Translations under genes and position numbers: made by a program
From: Thioclava sp. GXIMD2076
Lineage (GTDB): Bacteria > Pseudomonadota > Alphaproteobacteria > Rhodobacterales > Rhodobacteraceae
Assembly: GCF_037949795.1 (NCBI RefSeq)
Contig: NZ_CP149932.1
Location: 2,752,621 to 2,816,620, forward strand
Direction: 5' to 3'
Length of the DNA stretch: 64,000 nt
Part shown: piece after piece, positions 50,503 through 56,215 of the stretch
Layout: the number at the start of each line of letters is the position of its first letter
Position numbering within the stretch: the stretch's first letter is position 1
Notes under the pieces: generated by a model
What the model was told of the DNA's origin: nothing
Database searches by the model: none
The model's input: only the letters and a program-made list of their open reading frames with translations

Positions 50503-50589
50503 TGGTGCGGTCGAGAAGACTCGAACTTCCACGGGAGTTACCCCACAGCGACCTCAACGCTGCGCGTCTACCAATTCCGCCACGACCGC
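50503..50589 (-). tRNA. tRNA-Leu (anticodon GAG)
   Basis: The minus strand folds into a class II tRNA of 87 nt with CCA encoded. The acceptor stem is GCGGTCG/CGACCGC, the anticodon arm CAGCG-TTGAGGT-CGCTG gives anticodon GAG, the variable arm is long as for leucine, and the T arm is GAAG-TTCGAGT-CTTC. It reads leucine codons CUU and CUC, the latter common in this GC-rich genome. Confidence 0.97.
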
Positions 50590-50765
50590 ACTGTCTCTGG
50601 CTTGGTGAGGGCTATCTAGCGGGTGGCGCGGGCGTTGAAAAGAGGAAAAATGCACTTTGGCGATTTTTTCTTTGATCTCCGCCCGTTCCCCCTTTTTTAT
50701 AAGGGTTTGCGGGCTTGCATCCTTGCCCCGAAAGCGCGACATCAGGGGAAATTCCGGAGGATGCC

Positions 50766-51434
50766 ATGGTAGAGTGGATACATTCAGACAGGCCCGTCGC
50801 TTATGAGGAGGCCTTGGCCTTCATGGAAGCCCGTGTGGCCGCGATTCATGCCGGCGAGGCCGAGGAAGCCATCTGGCTTCTCGAACATCCGCCCCTCTAT
50901 ACGGCGGGCACCTCGGCACAGCGCGAGGATCTGGTCGATCCCGACCGCTTCCCCGTCTATGAGGCCGGTCGGGGCGGGCAATATACCTATCACGGGCCGG
51001 GCCAGCGCATCGCCTATGTGATGCTCGATCTCAACCGCCGTGGCCGCGATGTGCGCGGCTTCGTGCAGAAGCTCGAGAACTGGGTCATCGCGGCGCTTGC
51101 CGATTTCAACGTGAAGGGCGAGATCCGCGAGGGCCGTGTGGGGGTCTGGGTCGAGCGCCCCGACCGTCCACGCGGTATCGACGGATCACTGGCCGAGGAC
51201 AAGATCGCCGCGATCGGGGTGAAGCTGCGCAAATGGGTCAGCTTCCACGGCATCTCGATCAATGTCGAACCGGATCTGGAGCATTTCACGGGAATCGTGC
51301 CCTGCGGGATCAAGGATCACGGGGTCACCAGCCTTGTCGATCTGGGCCTGCCGGTGGAACTTGGCGATATCGACGCCGCCCTTATGGCGCATTTCCCCGA
51401 GATCTTCGACCCTAGCGAAATTGATGCCCGCTAA
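50766..51434 (+). CDS. lipB: Octanoyl-ACP:protein N-octanoyltransferase
   Basis: LipB (222 aa) transfers octanoate from acyl carrier protein to lipoyl domains, the first step of lipoate attachment. Motifs [20 protein letters not shown] near residue 77, [20 protein letters not shown] near 143 with the catalytic Lys, and [14 protein letters not shown] with the catalytic Cys are all present. ATG 50766 has GGAGG upstream; the out-of-frame ATG at 50761 is not used. Confidence 0.96.
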
Positions 51435-51527
51435 GTGAATACCTATATCGGGACTGATTGTGTTATCATACCGACCATGTCCGGTGGCCCGCCTACCGGC
51501 CAGAGGACTGACCTGAGGACCCTTGCG

Positions 51528-51950
51528 ATGAAGATCAGCCGTTATGCCACACTCGCCGCCATCGGTACAACTCTGGCCTGCGCCACCCCCGTTTTCGCGC
51601 AGGATGCCGCGAAGGGCGAGAGTGATTTCCGCACCTGCCGCTCCTGCCATGCGATCACCGCCCCCGACGGATCGGCGATCGTCAAAGGCGGAAAGGTCGG
51701 CCCCAACCTCTATGGCGTGATCGGGCGCAAGGTCGGCAGCCTCGCAGGGTTCCGCTACAAGGACGGGCTGAAATCTCTGGGTGATCAGGGTCTGGTCTGG
51801 ACCAAGGCCGAGCTTGAAGCCTATATCACCGACCCGACCGGCTGGCTGCGCGAGAAAACCGGCGACAGCTCGGCGCGCTCGGGAATGACCTACAAAGCCA
51901 AAAGCGGTCAGGCCGATATCGCCGCCTATCTGGAATCGGTCGCGAAATAA
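51528..51950 (+). CDS. Periplasmic class I cytochrome c (c-type, single haem)
   Basis: The 140-residue product has a Sec signal peptide (cleaved near PVFA-QDA, residue 24) and one haem site, CRSCH at 37-41, with Met120 in SGMTYK as the likely sixth ligand. Length and layout fit the short c550/c2-like group that carries electrons to oxidases. GAGGA precedes ATG 51528. A terminator hairpin (51974) separates it from the oxidase-like gene downstream. Confidence 0.9.
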   Translation: MKISRYATLAAIGTTLACATPVFAQDAAKGESDFRTCRSCHAITAPDGSAIVKGGKVGPNLYGVIGRKVGSLAGFRYKDGLKSLGDQGLVWTKAELEAYITDPTGWLREKTGDSSARSGMTYKAKSGQADIAAYLESVAK

Positions 51951-51997: not shown

Positions 51998-52056
51998 TTC
52001 CTTTCGAGCGGTTTGACTGTATTGCGGGCTCGATTCCGCCCTTCAGGAGACCCGAC

Positions 52057-53586
52057 ATGCCGCAAGAGACCGCCAGCCCACAGCCCGCGACCATCGGCTC
52101 GGCGCGGTTTTCCGACCACAAGACGCTCGGCATCCTGTATCTCCTGACGGCGCTGGTGGTCGGGCTGATCTCGGTGCTGTTCACGGTCTATATGCGGCTC
52201 GAGCTGATGGAGCCGGGGGTGCAGTATCTGTGCTCGGAAGGCACACGGCTCTGGCCCGGCACGGCGCCCTGTTCGCCCAATACCGCTTTGTGGGAAATGC
52301 TGGCCGCCTCGCACGGGGTGCTGATGATGTTTTTCGTGGCGATCCCCGGACTTTTTGCGGGCTTCGGCTCCTATATCCTGCCACTTCATCTGCGCGCACC
52401 CGAGCTGGCCTTCCCGCGGATGAACCGCAGCGCCTACCAGCTCTATGTGCTGGCCTGCCTGATGGGCGTGGGCGCGCTCTTCTCGGCCCATACTGCTCCT
52501 ATCGCCATTGCGGCCCTCTTCGTCATGGGACTTTCGACGATTCTGACCGCGATCAATATGGTCACGAGCGTGCTGAACATGCGCGGCGCGGGCATCACCT
52601 TGCACAACGCCTCGCCCTTCGCATGGTCGATCCTTGTGACGGGGGCAATGGTGCTCTGCGCGCTACCGGTGCTGGCGGGTGCGATCACCATGATGCTCGA
52701 CCCAGCCTACCGCCGGATCATCCATAGTGACGACCCCGAACTTTACCGCCAGATCCTGTGGTTCTTCAGCCATCCGCAAATCTATATCATCATCCTGCCG
52801 GGCTTCGGGATCATCTCGCAGATCGTCACCACCTGCGCAGGGCGCCCCCTGTTTGCCCAGAAAGCGGTGATCTATGCGATGCTGGCGATCGGCCTTCTGG
52901 GCTTTGCCACATGGGCGCATTACATGTTCACCCGCGGGCTGATGGCGGGATCCGAAAGCGGCTTCACGCTGGCGGCCACGATCGTGGGGCTTCCCACGCT
53001 GGTGATCCTGTTCTCCTGGGTGATGACACTGGTGCAGGCGCGGCCCCTGTGGCGCACGCCGTTGCTATGGGCTCTCGGTTTCATCTTCCTCTTTGTCGTG
53101 GGCGGGCTGAGCGGGTTGCTGCTAAGCGGCGCGCCGCTCGATATCGACCATGCCAGCACCTATTTCGTGGTGGCACATTCGCATTATGTCATGAGCCTCG
53201 GTGCGATCTTCGCCCTCTTTGCGGGGATCTATTTCTGGATCGGCAAGATGACGGGGCGCGCCTATCCCGAATGGATGGGACAGCTGCATTTCTGGCTGAT
53301 GTTCCTTGGCACCAACCTGACCTTCTTCCCGCAGCAGATTCTCGGGCAGGAAGGCATGCCGCGCCGGATACTGGACTATCCGCAGCAATTCGCTCTGCTC
53401 AACCAGCTTTCCTCTCTAGGCACCTTCCTGTCCTTCGCGTCTTTCCTGCTGTTCATCGCAACGATCCTCTGGACCCTTCTGGCAGGCCGCAGGGAGGCGA
53501 TGCCCGTCTGGGTTCACGCGCAGATGAGCCCCGAATGGACGCTGCCCTCACCGCCGCCTCCGGATTGTTTCGAGACGCGGCTCTAG
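52057..53586 (+). CDS. Cytochrome c oxidase subunit I (CtaD) paralogue with altered active-site residues
   Basis: The product (509 aa) is a polytopic haem-copper oxidase subunit I resembling aa3-type CtaD. Haem ligands His86, His374 and His376 are kept, as are CuB ligand His239 and the cross-link Tyr243 (SHPQIYIIILPGFG). But the His-His pair is His288-Tyr289 (WAHYMFT), the proton-pump Glu is Gln241 (HPQ, not HPE), the K-channel Lys is Arg333 (WRTPLLW), and Asp of the D channel is Glu116. The TM3-TM4 segment is about 30 residues shorter and lacks the WTLYPPL loop. No subunit II or III gene is adjacent. Ordinary oxidase activity is therefore doubtful. Confidence 0.85.
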   Translation: MPQETASPQPATIGSARFSDHKTLGILYLLTALVVGLISVLFTVYMRLELMEPGVQYLCSEGTRLWPGTAPCSPNTALWEMLAASHGVLMMFFVAIPGLFAGFGSYILPLHLRAPELAFPRMNRSAYQLYVLACLMGVGALFSAHTAPIAIAALFVMGLSTILTAINMVTSVLNMRGAGITLHNASPFAWSILVTGAMVLCALPVLAGAITMMLDPAYRRIIHSDDPELYRQILWFFSHPQIYIIILPGFGIISQIVTTCAGRPLFAQKAVIYAMLAIGLLGFATWAHYMFTRGLMAGSESGFTLAATIVGLPTLVILFSWVMTLVQARPLWRTPLLWALGFIFLFVVGGLSGLLLSGAPLDIDHASTYFVVAHSHYVMSLGAIFALFAGIYFWIGKMTGRAYPEWMGQLHFWLMFLGTNLTFFPQQILGQEGMPRRILDYPQQFALLNQLSSLGTFLSFASFLLFIATILWTLLAGRREAMPVWVHAQMSPEWTLPSPPPPDCFETRL

Positions 53587-53593
53587 CCTCCAC

Positions 53594-53995
53594 TCAGGCA
53601 GGGCCAATTGGCAGACAGCGGTATTGGCGCTCGACTGTCAGCGCCGCAGAGCGTGCCCATTCGTCGGATTTGCGGTTCACGCTGGCTTCGAGCGATCCAC
53701 CGCTCGATACACCTGCCTTGAGCACTGAGATCAGCGTCTTGGCAAAGACCGGACCATAGGAAGCGATCTCGTGTTCATAGGCCTGATGGGCCTTCTGTGC
53801 ACGGGCACGTGTCTCCCGCTCGTCCGCTCCCTTGCTGCAGGCATAGGCAAGTTTGCCACCGCTCTGGCTCGAGAAGGACAGGATCTCGCGATCCGGCATG
53901 GCCGACTGCACCTGCCCCGTCGGATTGGTGCAGGCTGCCACTGCGCCAAGCATCATAACCCCCACAATCGGCTTCCACTGTATCATGCCAGACAT
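53594..53995 (-). CDS. Hypothetical lipoprotein
   Basis: The 133-residue product has a lipoprotein signal MSGMIQWKPIVGVMMLGAVA ending AVAAC, lipidation at Cys22, and a mature part with two further Cys. A GGAAGGGG site precedes ATG 53995; a second ATG at 53986 is possible. It is convergent with the oxidase-like gene. No family recognised. Confidence 0.7.
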   Translation of the reverse strand: MSGMIQWKPIVGVMMLGAVAACTNPTGQVQSAMPDREILSFSSQSGGKLAYACSKGADERETRARAQKAHQAYEHEIASYGPVFAKTLISVLKAGVSSGGSLEASVNRKSDEWARSAALTVERQYRCLPIGPA

Positions 53996-54433: not shown

Positions 54434-54895
54434 TCAGGCCGAGAGCCGGTCCTTCACGCGCGGACCGACAGACGCGAAATCCATCTGGCCGGTATATTTG
54501 CCCTTCAGCACGCCCATGACACGGCCCATATCACGGATCGAGCTGGCCTCGATCTCGGCGATTGCCGCATCGATGGCCGCCTTGACCTCGTCATCATTGA
54601 GCTGGCGCGGCAGGAAGGTCTCGAGAATCTTGATCTCGGAAAGCTCTTGCTCCGCCAGCTCCAGCCGCCCGCCCTCTTCATAGGCCCGCGCGCTTTCATG
54701 GCGCTGCTTCACCATCTTGCCCAGAATCTGCATCACGTCGGCATCGGTGATCTCGTGTTCCTCACTGGTGCCGCGCATCGCGATCTCGCGATCCTTGATG
54801 GCCGCATTCACCAGACGGAGCGTCGACAGACGCGCCTGATCCTTGTCGCGCATCGCCTCTTTCAAGGCGGCGTTAATTTTTGCGCGCATGTCCAC
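54434..54895 (-). CDS. GatB/YqeY domain protein
   Basis: The helical protein (153 aa) matches the GatB/YqeY tail domain: RAKINAALKEAMRDKDQARL near the N terminus and RDMGRVMGVLKGKYTGQMD near the end. Stand-alone YqeY proteins may bind tRNA, but their role is unclear. The GTG at 54895 is taken as start because GAGGGG precedes it by about 7 bases; longer starts at 54913 and 54919 lack a site. Confidence 0.88.
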   Translation of the reverse strand: MDMRAKINAALKEAMRDKDQARLSTLRLVNAAIKDREIAMRGTSEEHEITDADVMQILGKMVKQRHESARAYEEGGRLELAEQELSEIKILETFLPRQLNDDEVKAAIDAAIAEIEASSIRDMGRVMGVLKGKYTGQMDFASVGPRVKDRLSA

Positions 54896-55063
54896 GGCAA
54901 AACCCCTCTTCATGTTCAAGCGGGCAGGATACTCCGATCGTCACAAAGGCACAATACAGCTAAGCCATTGTATTTAATGCATATCATGTTTTCTCTTTGA
55001 GGTCTTGACCATTGGGGCCTACGCTCGTAGGTTCCGGCAGATTTTGCCCCGGGGAGTCGCGCC

Positions 55064-56215
55064 ATGTCTGCAAACCACCAGTCATCCGAAAAACCCACCG
55101 CGCTGATCGCGCTGGCGGACGGACAATTGTTCTACGGGAAAGGCTTCGGTGCCACCGGTGAAACCGTCGCGGAACTCGTGTTCAACACCGCCATGACGGG
55201 TTATCAGGAGATCATGACCGATCCGTCCTATGCAGGTCAGGTCGTTACCTTCACCTTCCCGCATATCGGCAATGTCGGTGTGAACGCGGAAGATGACGAG
55301 ACCCAGGATCCGGTTGCCGCCGGCATGGTCGTCAAATGGGACCCGACGGAGCCGTCAAGCTGGCGCGCGACCTCGAACCTCGTCGACTGGCTCGAGAAGC
55401 GTAACCGGATCGGTGTGGGCGGCATCGATACCCGCCGCCTGACCCGCGCGATTCGCCAGCTGGGCGCGCCGAATGTGGCCATTGCCCATAATCCCGACGG
55501 TGTTTTCGACATCGAGGCGCTGGTCAAGAAGGCCCGTGACTGGTCCGGTCTGGTCGGCCTCGACCTCGCCAAGGACGTGACTTGTGCACAATCCTACCGC
55601 TGGAACGAAATGCGTTGGGCATGGCCGGATGGCTACAAGCCGCGCACCGAGGAAGGCAAGAAGGTCGTCGCCATCGATTTCGGTGCCAAGCGCAACATTC
55701 TGCGCTGCCTCGCCTCTGCCGGTGCCGATGTAACAGTGCTTCCCGCAACCGCGACCGCCGAGGAGATCCTCGCGCTCAACCCCGATGGGGTGTTCCTGTC
55801 GAACGGTCCGGGCGACCCTGCCGCGACCGGTGAATATGCCGTGCCGATGATCAAGGACATCCTTAAGACTGACCTACCGGTCTTCGGGATTTGCCTTGGA
55901 CACCAGATGCTTGCGCTGGCTCTGGGTGCCAAGACCATCAAGATGAACCACGGCCATCACGGCGCGAACCACCCCGTGAAGGATCTCACCACCAACAAGG
56001 TGGAGATCACCTCGATGAACCACGGTTTCGCCGTGGACAGCCAGACGCTGCCTGAAGGTGTGACCGAAACCCATGTGTCGCTGTTTGATGGCTCGAACTG
56101 CGGGATCGCTATGGAAAGCCGGCCGGTCTTCTCCGTGCAATACCACCCCGAAGCCAGCCCGGGCCCGATGGACAGCTACTATCTGTTCGACCGTTTCATC
56201 GCCGCGATGAAATAA
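55064..56215 (+). CDS. carA: Carbamoyl-phosphate synthase small (glutaminase) subunit
   Basis: CarA (383 aa) hydrolyses glutamine and passes ammonia to CarB for carbamoyl phosphate, feeding arginine and pyrimidine synthesis. The N-terminal domain has TAMTGYQEIMTDPSYAGQ; the class I amidotransferase domain has the nucleophile motif GICLGHQ near residue 268 and YHPEASPGP near 354. The partner carB is not within the window. A strong terminator follows. Confidence 0.97.
   Translation: MSANHQSSEKPTALIALADGQLFYGKGFGATGETVAELVFNTAMTGYQEIMTDPSYAGQVVTFTFPHIGNVGVNAEDDETQDPVAAGMVVKWDPTEPSSWRATSNLVDWLEKRNRIGVGGIDTRRLTRAIRQLGAPNVAIAHNPDGVFDIEALVKKARDWSGLVGLDLAKDVTCAQSYRWNEMRWAWPDGYKPRTEEGKKVVAIDFGAKRNILRCLASAGADVTVLPATATAEEILALNPDGVFLSNGPGDPAATGEYAVPMIKDILKTDLPVFGICLGHQMLALALGAKTIKMNHGHHGANHPVKDLTTNKVEITSMNHGFAVDSQTLPEGVTETHVSLFDGSNCGIAMESRPVFSVQYHPEASPGPMDSYYLFDRFIAAMK

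Follow-up and report, generated by a model that had tools for sequence, protein, structure and literature searches.

What can a cytochrome c oxidase subunit I still do once a ligand of its copper centre has been replaced and its partner subunits are gone? The question is raised by a ctaD-like gene of Thioclava sp. GXIMD2076, which lies in a window of 64,000 nucleotides (contig NZ_CP149932.1, positions 2,752,621 to 2,816,620), the whole stretch of DNA analysed here. A preliminary description had reported a CuB His to Tyr change in a COX1 protein that retains its haem ligands, and this core observation is right and holds in relatives. The gene is real, and its product is a full 12-helix COX1 protein. 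The homology proposed earlier is borne out by the match to PF00115 (Table 1) and by an AF2 model (48 alignment rows) with 12 long helices, a mean pLDDT of 73.9 and a pTM of 0.82, whose best PDB match is 1qle_A (TMq 0.86). Among solved structures, the aa3 subunits I of Paracoccus and Rhodobacter are its closest relatives. Against the curated CtaD model TIGR02891 (NCBIfam), the protein scores 448.2 bits, below the cut-off of 670.75, and the orthologue from genome G013 reaches 524.2 bits. A promoter scan gave no sigma-70-like site, and terminator-like sites numbered 3, against 1.2 expected.

Table 1. Features of the altered ctaD gene and its surroundings, in window coordinates; Pd, P. denitrificans numbering.
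Feature	Position	Strand	Basis or remark
tRNA-Leu (GAG)	50503-50589	-	only tRNA gene found in window; between M24 peptidase and lipB genes
lipB	50715..51434	+	PF21948; near ctaD in 73/80 other loci
cycA-like cytochrome c	51435..51950	+	weak NF043008 match, 59.5 bits, below cut-off; near ctaD in 65/80 other loci
AGGAG, likely ribosome binding site, 7 bases before ATG	52045..52049	+	read from sequence
altered ctaD (orphan aa3-type COX1), 509 aa	52057..53586	+	PF00115, 341.8 bits; frame uninterrupted in each trio genome
His86 = Pd H94, haem a ligand, kept	52312..52314	+	site comparison
Glu116 = Pd D124 (D-path entry), altered; G006 Glu, G013 Asn	52402..52404	+	site comparison
codons 143-144, junction; 24 TM3-TM4 loop residues (Pd 152-175, including W164) missing	52483..52488	+	alignment
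His239 = Pd H276, CuB ligand, kept	52771..52773	+	site comparison
Gln241 (CAA) = Pd E278; G006, T. litoralis (P0003) and G013 have Glu	52777..52779	+	site comparison
Tyr243 = Pd Y280, cross-link Tyr, kept	52783..52785	+	site comparison
His288 = Pd H325 (CuB ligand), retained; G013 Tyr	52918..52920	+	site comparison, codons
Tyr289 (TAC) = Pd H326 (CuB ligand), replaced; G006 Tyr, G013 His	52921..52923	+	site comparison, codons
Ile317 (ATC) = Pd K354, K-path Lys replaced throughout the trio	53005..53007	+	site comparison
Ala366-Ser367 = Pd H403-D404, Mg site lost	53152..53157	+	site comparison
His374 = Pd H411, haem a3 ligand, kept	53176..53178	+	site comparison
His376 = Pd H413, haem a ligand, kept	53182..53184	+	site comparison
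133-aa lipoprotein-like gene	53594-53995	-	without Pfam match
yqeY	54434..54919	-	PF09424; near ctaD in 58/80 other loci
carA	55064..56215	+	near ctaD in 56/80 other loci

Altered genes of this kind are found in a trio among the 16 Thioclava genomes, namely Thioclava sp. GXIMD2076 itself (G000), G006, whose CtaD protein is 99.6% identical to a T. litoralis protein, and G013. Their products were compared at sites invariant in all 92 canonical rows (two genomes occur twice, and G015 was left out, its gene being split), using Pd numbers; the functional labels of these sites (haem, CuB, K path, D path, Mg) are textbook assignments that we take to apply here. All three proteins keep R54, H94, N131, N199, W272, H276, Y280, S291, T351, H411, H413 and R473. 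Altered throughout, in the order G000/G006/G013, are K354 (I/I/I), N113 (S/S/T), D124 (E/E/N), W164 (gap/gap/G), S189 (M/M/V), S193 (T/T/A), D404 (S/G/A) and F412 (S/S/T), while H326 (Y/Y/H), H325 (H/H/Y), E278 (Q/E/E) and H403 (A/A/H) are altered in part of the trio. The haem ligands, the CuB ligand His239 and the cross-link Tyr243 are thus all present, as first described, and Tyr289 and Glu116 do align with the Paracoccus CuB ligand H326 and with D124. To the changes listed before, the comparison adds N113S, the loss of W164, H403A, D404S and F412S in the G000 protein.

Other details had to be corrected. The K-channel Lys had been equated with Arg333, but K354 aligns with Ile317 instead; Arg333 falls at Pd 370, which varies in canonical rows (K in 83, E in 7 and R in 2 of the 92). 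The TM3-TM4 loop is indeed shortened, by 24 residues and not by about 30, and another five or so residues are absent from the TM5-TM6 loop. Gln241 occupies the position of the pump Glu, as proposed, but is private to this species, as orthologues with 81-82% identity keep Glu; it is the only one of the reported substitutions that close homologues lack. Nor are these substitutions conserved jointly: besides the private Gln241, G013 has Asn at the site of Glu116, and the lineages differ in which CuB His is replaced. On a wider count, the three proteins all retain the canonical residue at 135 of the 265 canonically invariant sites and have all lost it at 44, and only 6 of the 14 invariant His are kept. 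Retention of the haem His is therefore weak evidence on its own; our own arithmetic puts the chance survival of the three haem ligands at about 1 in 8.

The His pair is encoded by CAC CAC in G011 and in the canonical G012, by CAT TAC in G000 and G006, and by TAC CAT in G013. That the two lineages carry Tyr at different positions of the pair is striking, yet both changes may have arisen by chance, since His to Tyr takes one base. One could also read the protein as an enzyme of altered chemistry, with a metal at the B site held by two His and a Tyr, that turns over peroxide or NO in reactions of one or two electrons. All three proteins do have H276, Y280, the new Tyr and the remaining His of the pair, and the takeover of a different His in each lineage would fit; against this, the chaperone CtaG has been lost (see below), the K path and the Mg site are gone, and there is no known electron entry without CuA. 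We regard such an enzyme as very doubtful. The retained Y280 presumably also speaks against membership of the nitric oxide reductases with their FeB site.

The preliminary description called the gene a paralogue. It is not one, because it is the sole ctaD of its genome and sits at the ancestral lipB-cycA-ctaD locus of the Rhodobacteraceae. A PF00115 search of the genome, in which a canonical CtaD was to be sought elsewhere, gave no second ctaD and three genes in all: the altered ctaD, a CyoB and a CcoN, the latter two passing the cut-offs of TIGR02843 and TIGR00780, respectively. The order lipB, cycA, ctaD, yqeY, carA, GT is found in 14 of the 16 Thioclava genomes; of the exceptions, the stretch taken from G011 shows no more of this order than lipB-cycA-ctaD, and the contig of G015 starts inside ctaD. 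Beyond the genus, the neighbours were counted at 80 other loci, some on short contigs (Table 1), and the P. denitrificans locus L026 is among those with cycA near ctaD. Since cycA is thus an ancestral neighbour, the upstream cytochrome c is, contrary to the earlier suggestion, no special partner of the altered protein, and the locus showed no new gene that could be a partner.

Some features of this neighbourhood deserve mention in their own right. The cytochrome c gene evolves fast in the clade (71% identity and a dN/dS of 0.283 between G000 and G006), and likewise in one canonical pair, G001-G003 (0.353). The lipoprotein-like gene lies behind ctaD in 13 of the 16 genus genomes and at 1 of the 80 other loci, that of T. 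pacifica. In the canonical G012, the next gene after ctaD encodes a DUF2244 membrane protein (L116:7826-8362, - strand), with a relative in G007; at the ctaD locus, the only region examined for it, this gene is absent from G000 (window 53586-53594), G006 and G013, which points to a possible connection with the aa3 oxidase.

Strong COX2 matches (E < 1e-47), aa3-type COX3 (E < 1e-89) and CtaG are each present in 13 of the 16 genus genomes, and each is absent from G000, G006 and G013, while CtaA is present in all 16. The single weak COX2 match in each of G006 and G013 lies beside cyoB. In G000, a PF00116 search gave no subunit II match; because PF00116 also misses the CyoA of this genome, which TIGR01433 finds, the absence applies to the CtaC-type subunit II only. 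The earlier remark that no subunit II or III gene is near can therefore be extended to the whole genome for the CtaC-type subunit II and the aa3-type subunit III. The local absence itself weighs little, since ctaC lies about 480 kb from ctaD in the canonical G012 too. With subunit II missing genome-wide, normal oxidase activity is unlikely.

Could the protein serve instead as an alternative subunit I within the Cyo complex, working with quinol? The intact cyo genes could lend it subunits, but the CyoB of the same genome has RGFAD and HHYDQ blocks, which we take to form the quinol site, and the orphan has none of these residues there. We consider this reading barely credible.

The trio forms one clade in a tree of neighbouring genes (support 99/100), and its members have in common 12 identical derived residues, including K354I, at CtaD sites that are invariant in canonical proteins. 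A single ancestral loss of the partners, followed by change in place, would be the simplest history. The branches are long, with 0.28 for the stem, 0.47 for G013 and 0.60 for the stem of G000 and G006, against at most 0.045 for canonical Thioclava tips. FastTree placed G011 as sister of the trio; G011 has 15% of the columns, and we do not use this placement because IQ-TREE leaves it open.

Such long, fast branches are what one would expect of a relic, a ctaD slowly decaying after the loss of its complex and kept open for a time by the weak constraints on membrane proteins. The ease with which one base turns His into Tyr, at a different His in two lineages, fits this idea as well. The frame is nevertheless open in three species, and neutral simulation at 0.44 changes per site predicts stops, with a mean of 9.3 and at least one in each of 1000 runs, against 0 in the real frames. 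Between G000 and G006, dN is 0.118 and dS 0.881, so that dN/dS is 0.134, a low value that comes from one usable close pair and one method (NG86); at 0.13, it argues for purifying selection on the altered ctaD. Neither mark of a pseudogene, a broken frame or a dN/dS near 1, is seen in this gene, on the strength of the three open frames and that one pair. For the same pair, the ratio is 0.141 for the GT gene, 0.078 for lipB, 0.095 for yqeY, 0.051 for carA, 0.283 for cycA and 0.180 for the small gene behind ctaD. Pairs of ctaD with G013 give 0.277 (G000), 0.259 (G006) and 0.135 (G011), and six pairs of canonical ctaD give 0.012 to 0.089. As judged from these rates, the constraint on the altered gene is looser than that on a working oxidase, a point in favour of decay, and like that on an ordinary gene such as its GT neighbour, a point against it. 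Overall, we find a decaying relic unlikely.

We favour, at about an even chance, a different outcome: a membrane protein that stands alone, has two haems and probably no copper, and descends in place from an aa3 oxidase. Its open haem would bind a small ligand, and it would no longer be an oxygen-reducing pump. This agrees with the repurposed haem protein proposed at the outset, given the retained haem ligands, the changed CuB, K-path and Mg-site residues, the lost partners and chaperone, and the signs of purifying selection. In the ancestor of the three species, ctaD would have been retained when subunit II, CtaG (the CuB chaperone) and the aa3-type subunit III disappeared; the gene then probably changed fast and came under new constraint. 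In R. sphaeroides, CtaG is described as serving the assembly of CuB (PMC9145763). The loss of CtaG and the replacement of one CuB His make it most likely that CuB is missing, and a copper-free protein with two haems is the likely state that the residues point to. Because CtaA is kept, these could be haem A, although, with a SURF1 gene lying beside cyo, the Cyo oxidase by itself may account for the retention of CtaA. In the absence of subunit II there would be no CuA and no usual entry for electrons from cytochrome c, and with K354 lost the K path would be without its key residue, so the protein would neither reduce oxygen to water nor pump protons.

The present job of the orphan may be ligand binding or haem A handling. 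Our guess, one among several, is that the open haem, in a distal pocket with two His and two Tyr, binds O2, NO or peroxide and that the six-coordinate haem passes electrons or reports the redox state; the protein would then assist a respiratory chain whose oxidases are the intact Cyo quinol oxidase and cbb3. We could also speculate on a bolder form, a stand-alone haem protein on the oxidase fold with two haems and neither CuA nor CuB, in whose distal pocket one or the other CuB His has given way to Tyr twice, in separate lineages, giving ligand binding or one- or two-electron chemistry (NO, O2, peroxide), or a 2His-Tyr metal site; this we hold as a tentative minority view.

The kept CtaA also invites another role, that of a store of haem A, or an aid to assembly, for the Cyo (ba3-type) quinol oxidase, with haem supplied by CtaA and Surf1. 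The cyo operon of G000 (L118:5046-10072) has an adjoining SURF1 gene, which suggests that it encodes a haem A (ba3-type) quinol oxidase. In P. denitrificans, the ba3 quinol oxidase receives its haem a from Surf1q (PMC5249081). CtaA is encoded in every genome of the genus and the haem pockets are kept, both in line with such a helper; the 13 relatives with canonical CtaD, however, show no need of one, and nothing ties the ctaD locus to cyo. A role in haem A handling seems to us rather unlikely.

How widespread is this state? Among 192 relatives, four (P0001, P0002, P0003 and P0122) deviate at the CuB His pair or K354 in a motif match, and all belong to the clade. One canonical-looking CtaD in this set, P0066, did not match the expected HP-x-Y (E278) motif, and the string WFFGHP was not found in it. 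A search with the G013 protein returned, in the best 120 of 8000 matches, the protein itself (P0122) and then a canonical CtaD with 60% identity. In a sample of 385 genomes of the class, the DNA pattern for WAHYM occurs in one, G000 itself, and that for WAYH in three; the three WAYH loci gave no match to CtaD by tblastn (E up to 1), and one of them, L157, reads as an unrelated protein. This spread is a lower bound, as the sample holds five family genomes, G000 included, and exact patterns miss other spellings. CtaG is present in 385 of 395 family genomes (completeness at least 95%). Ten lack it, G000 among them; of the other nine, a ctaD-like gene is missing from five, while two carry an ordinary (WAHH) ctaD and two carry distant types only, and no altered ctaD of this kind was seen among the matches inspected, those of G137 and G403 being partly read. 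These two CtaG-less genomes, of one genus, carry several COX1 genes (L144-L155) about 38-41% identical to CtaD. The titles and abstract openings searched, in a literature set that leaves most subscription journals outside, contained no report of an orphan CtaD in Thioclava or of a CtaD lineage with a CuB His to Tyr change.

An oxidase subunit I is regarded as useless without its partners, and in a P. denitrificans ctaCBGE deletion strain subunit I is absent as well (PMC5249081). The orphan, which would stand alone in the membrane, must therefore have evolved independence. If it is under selection, a natural subunit I that has outlived subunits II and III and the CuB chaperone offers a test case for a haem pair without copper, and the sister species in which the other His of the pair was lost provides a natural comparison.

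Several known systems resemble it in part. The Cyo (bo3/ba3) subunit I belongs to the same COX1 family, and the orphan is 28% identical to the CyoB of its own genome (blastp); it differs in being shorter, in lacking the quinol-site residues in the alignment with that CyoB and in having no subunit II partner. The degenerate B-family oxidases of alphaproteobacteria are likewise heme-copper members that may have lost oxygen reduction or changed function, but they are described as lacking the catalytic Tyr (PMC6431628), whereas the orphan is derived from family A1 and keeps Y280. A haem-bearing subunit I without CuB, as we infer the orphan to be, is also known from the R. sphaeroides surf1 deletion (PMC9145763); those forms are laboratory defects of a complete enzyme, while the orphan represents a fixed, evolved state without subunits II and III. 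Finally, with the aa3 CtaD of family A1 (P. denitrificans 1ar1/1qle, R. sphaeroides 1m56) the orphan shares the fold, the haem ligands, H276, Y280, R54, R473 and the locus. It differs from that enzyme in lacking the third CuB His, K354, D124, N113, W164 and the Mg site, in a D path that carries Glu116 and Gln241 in G000 and retains Glu278 in G006 and G013, and in a genome that encodes neither subunit II, nor the aa3-type subunit III, nor CtaG.
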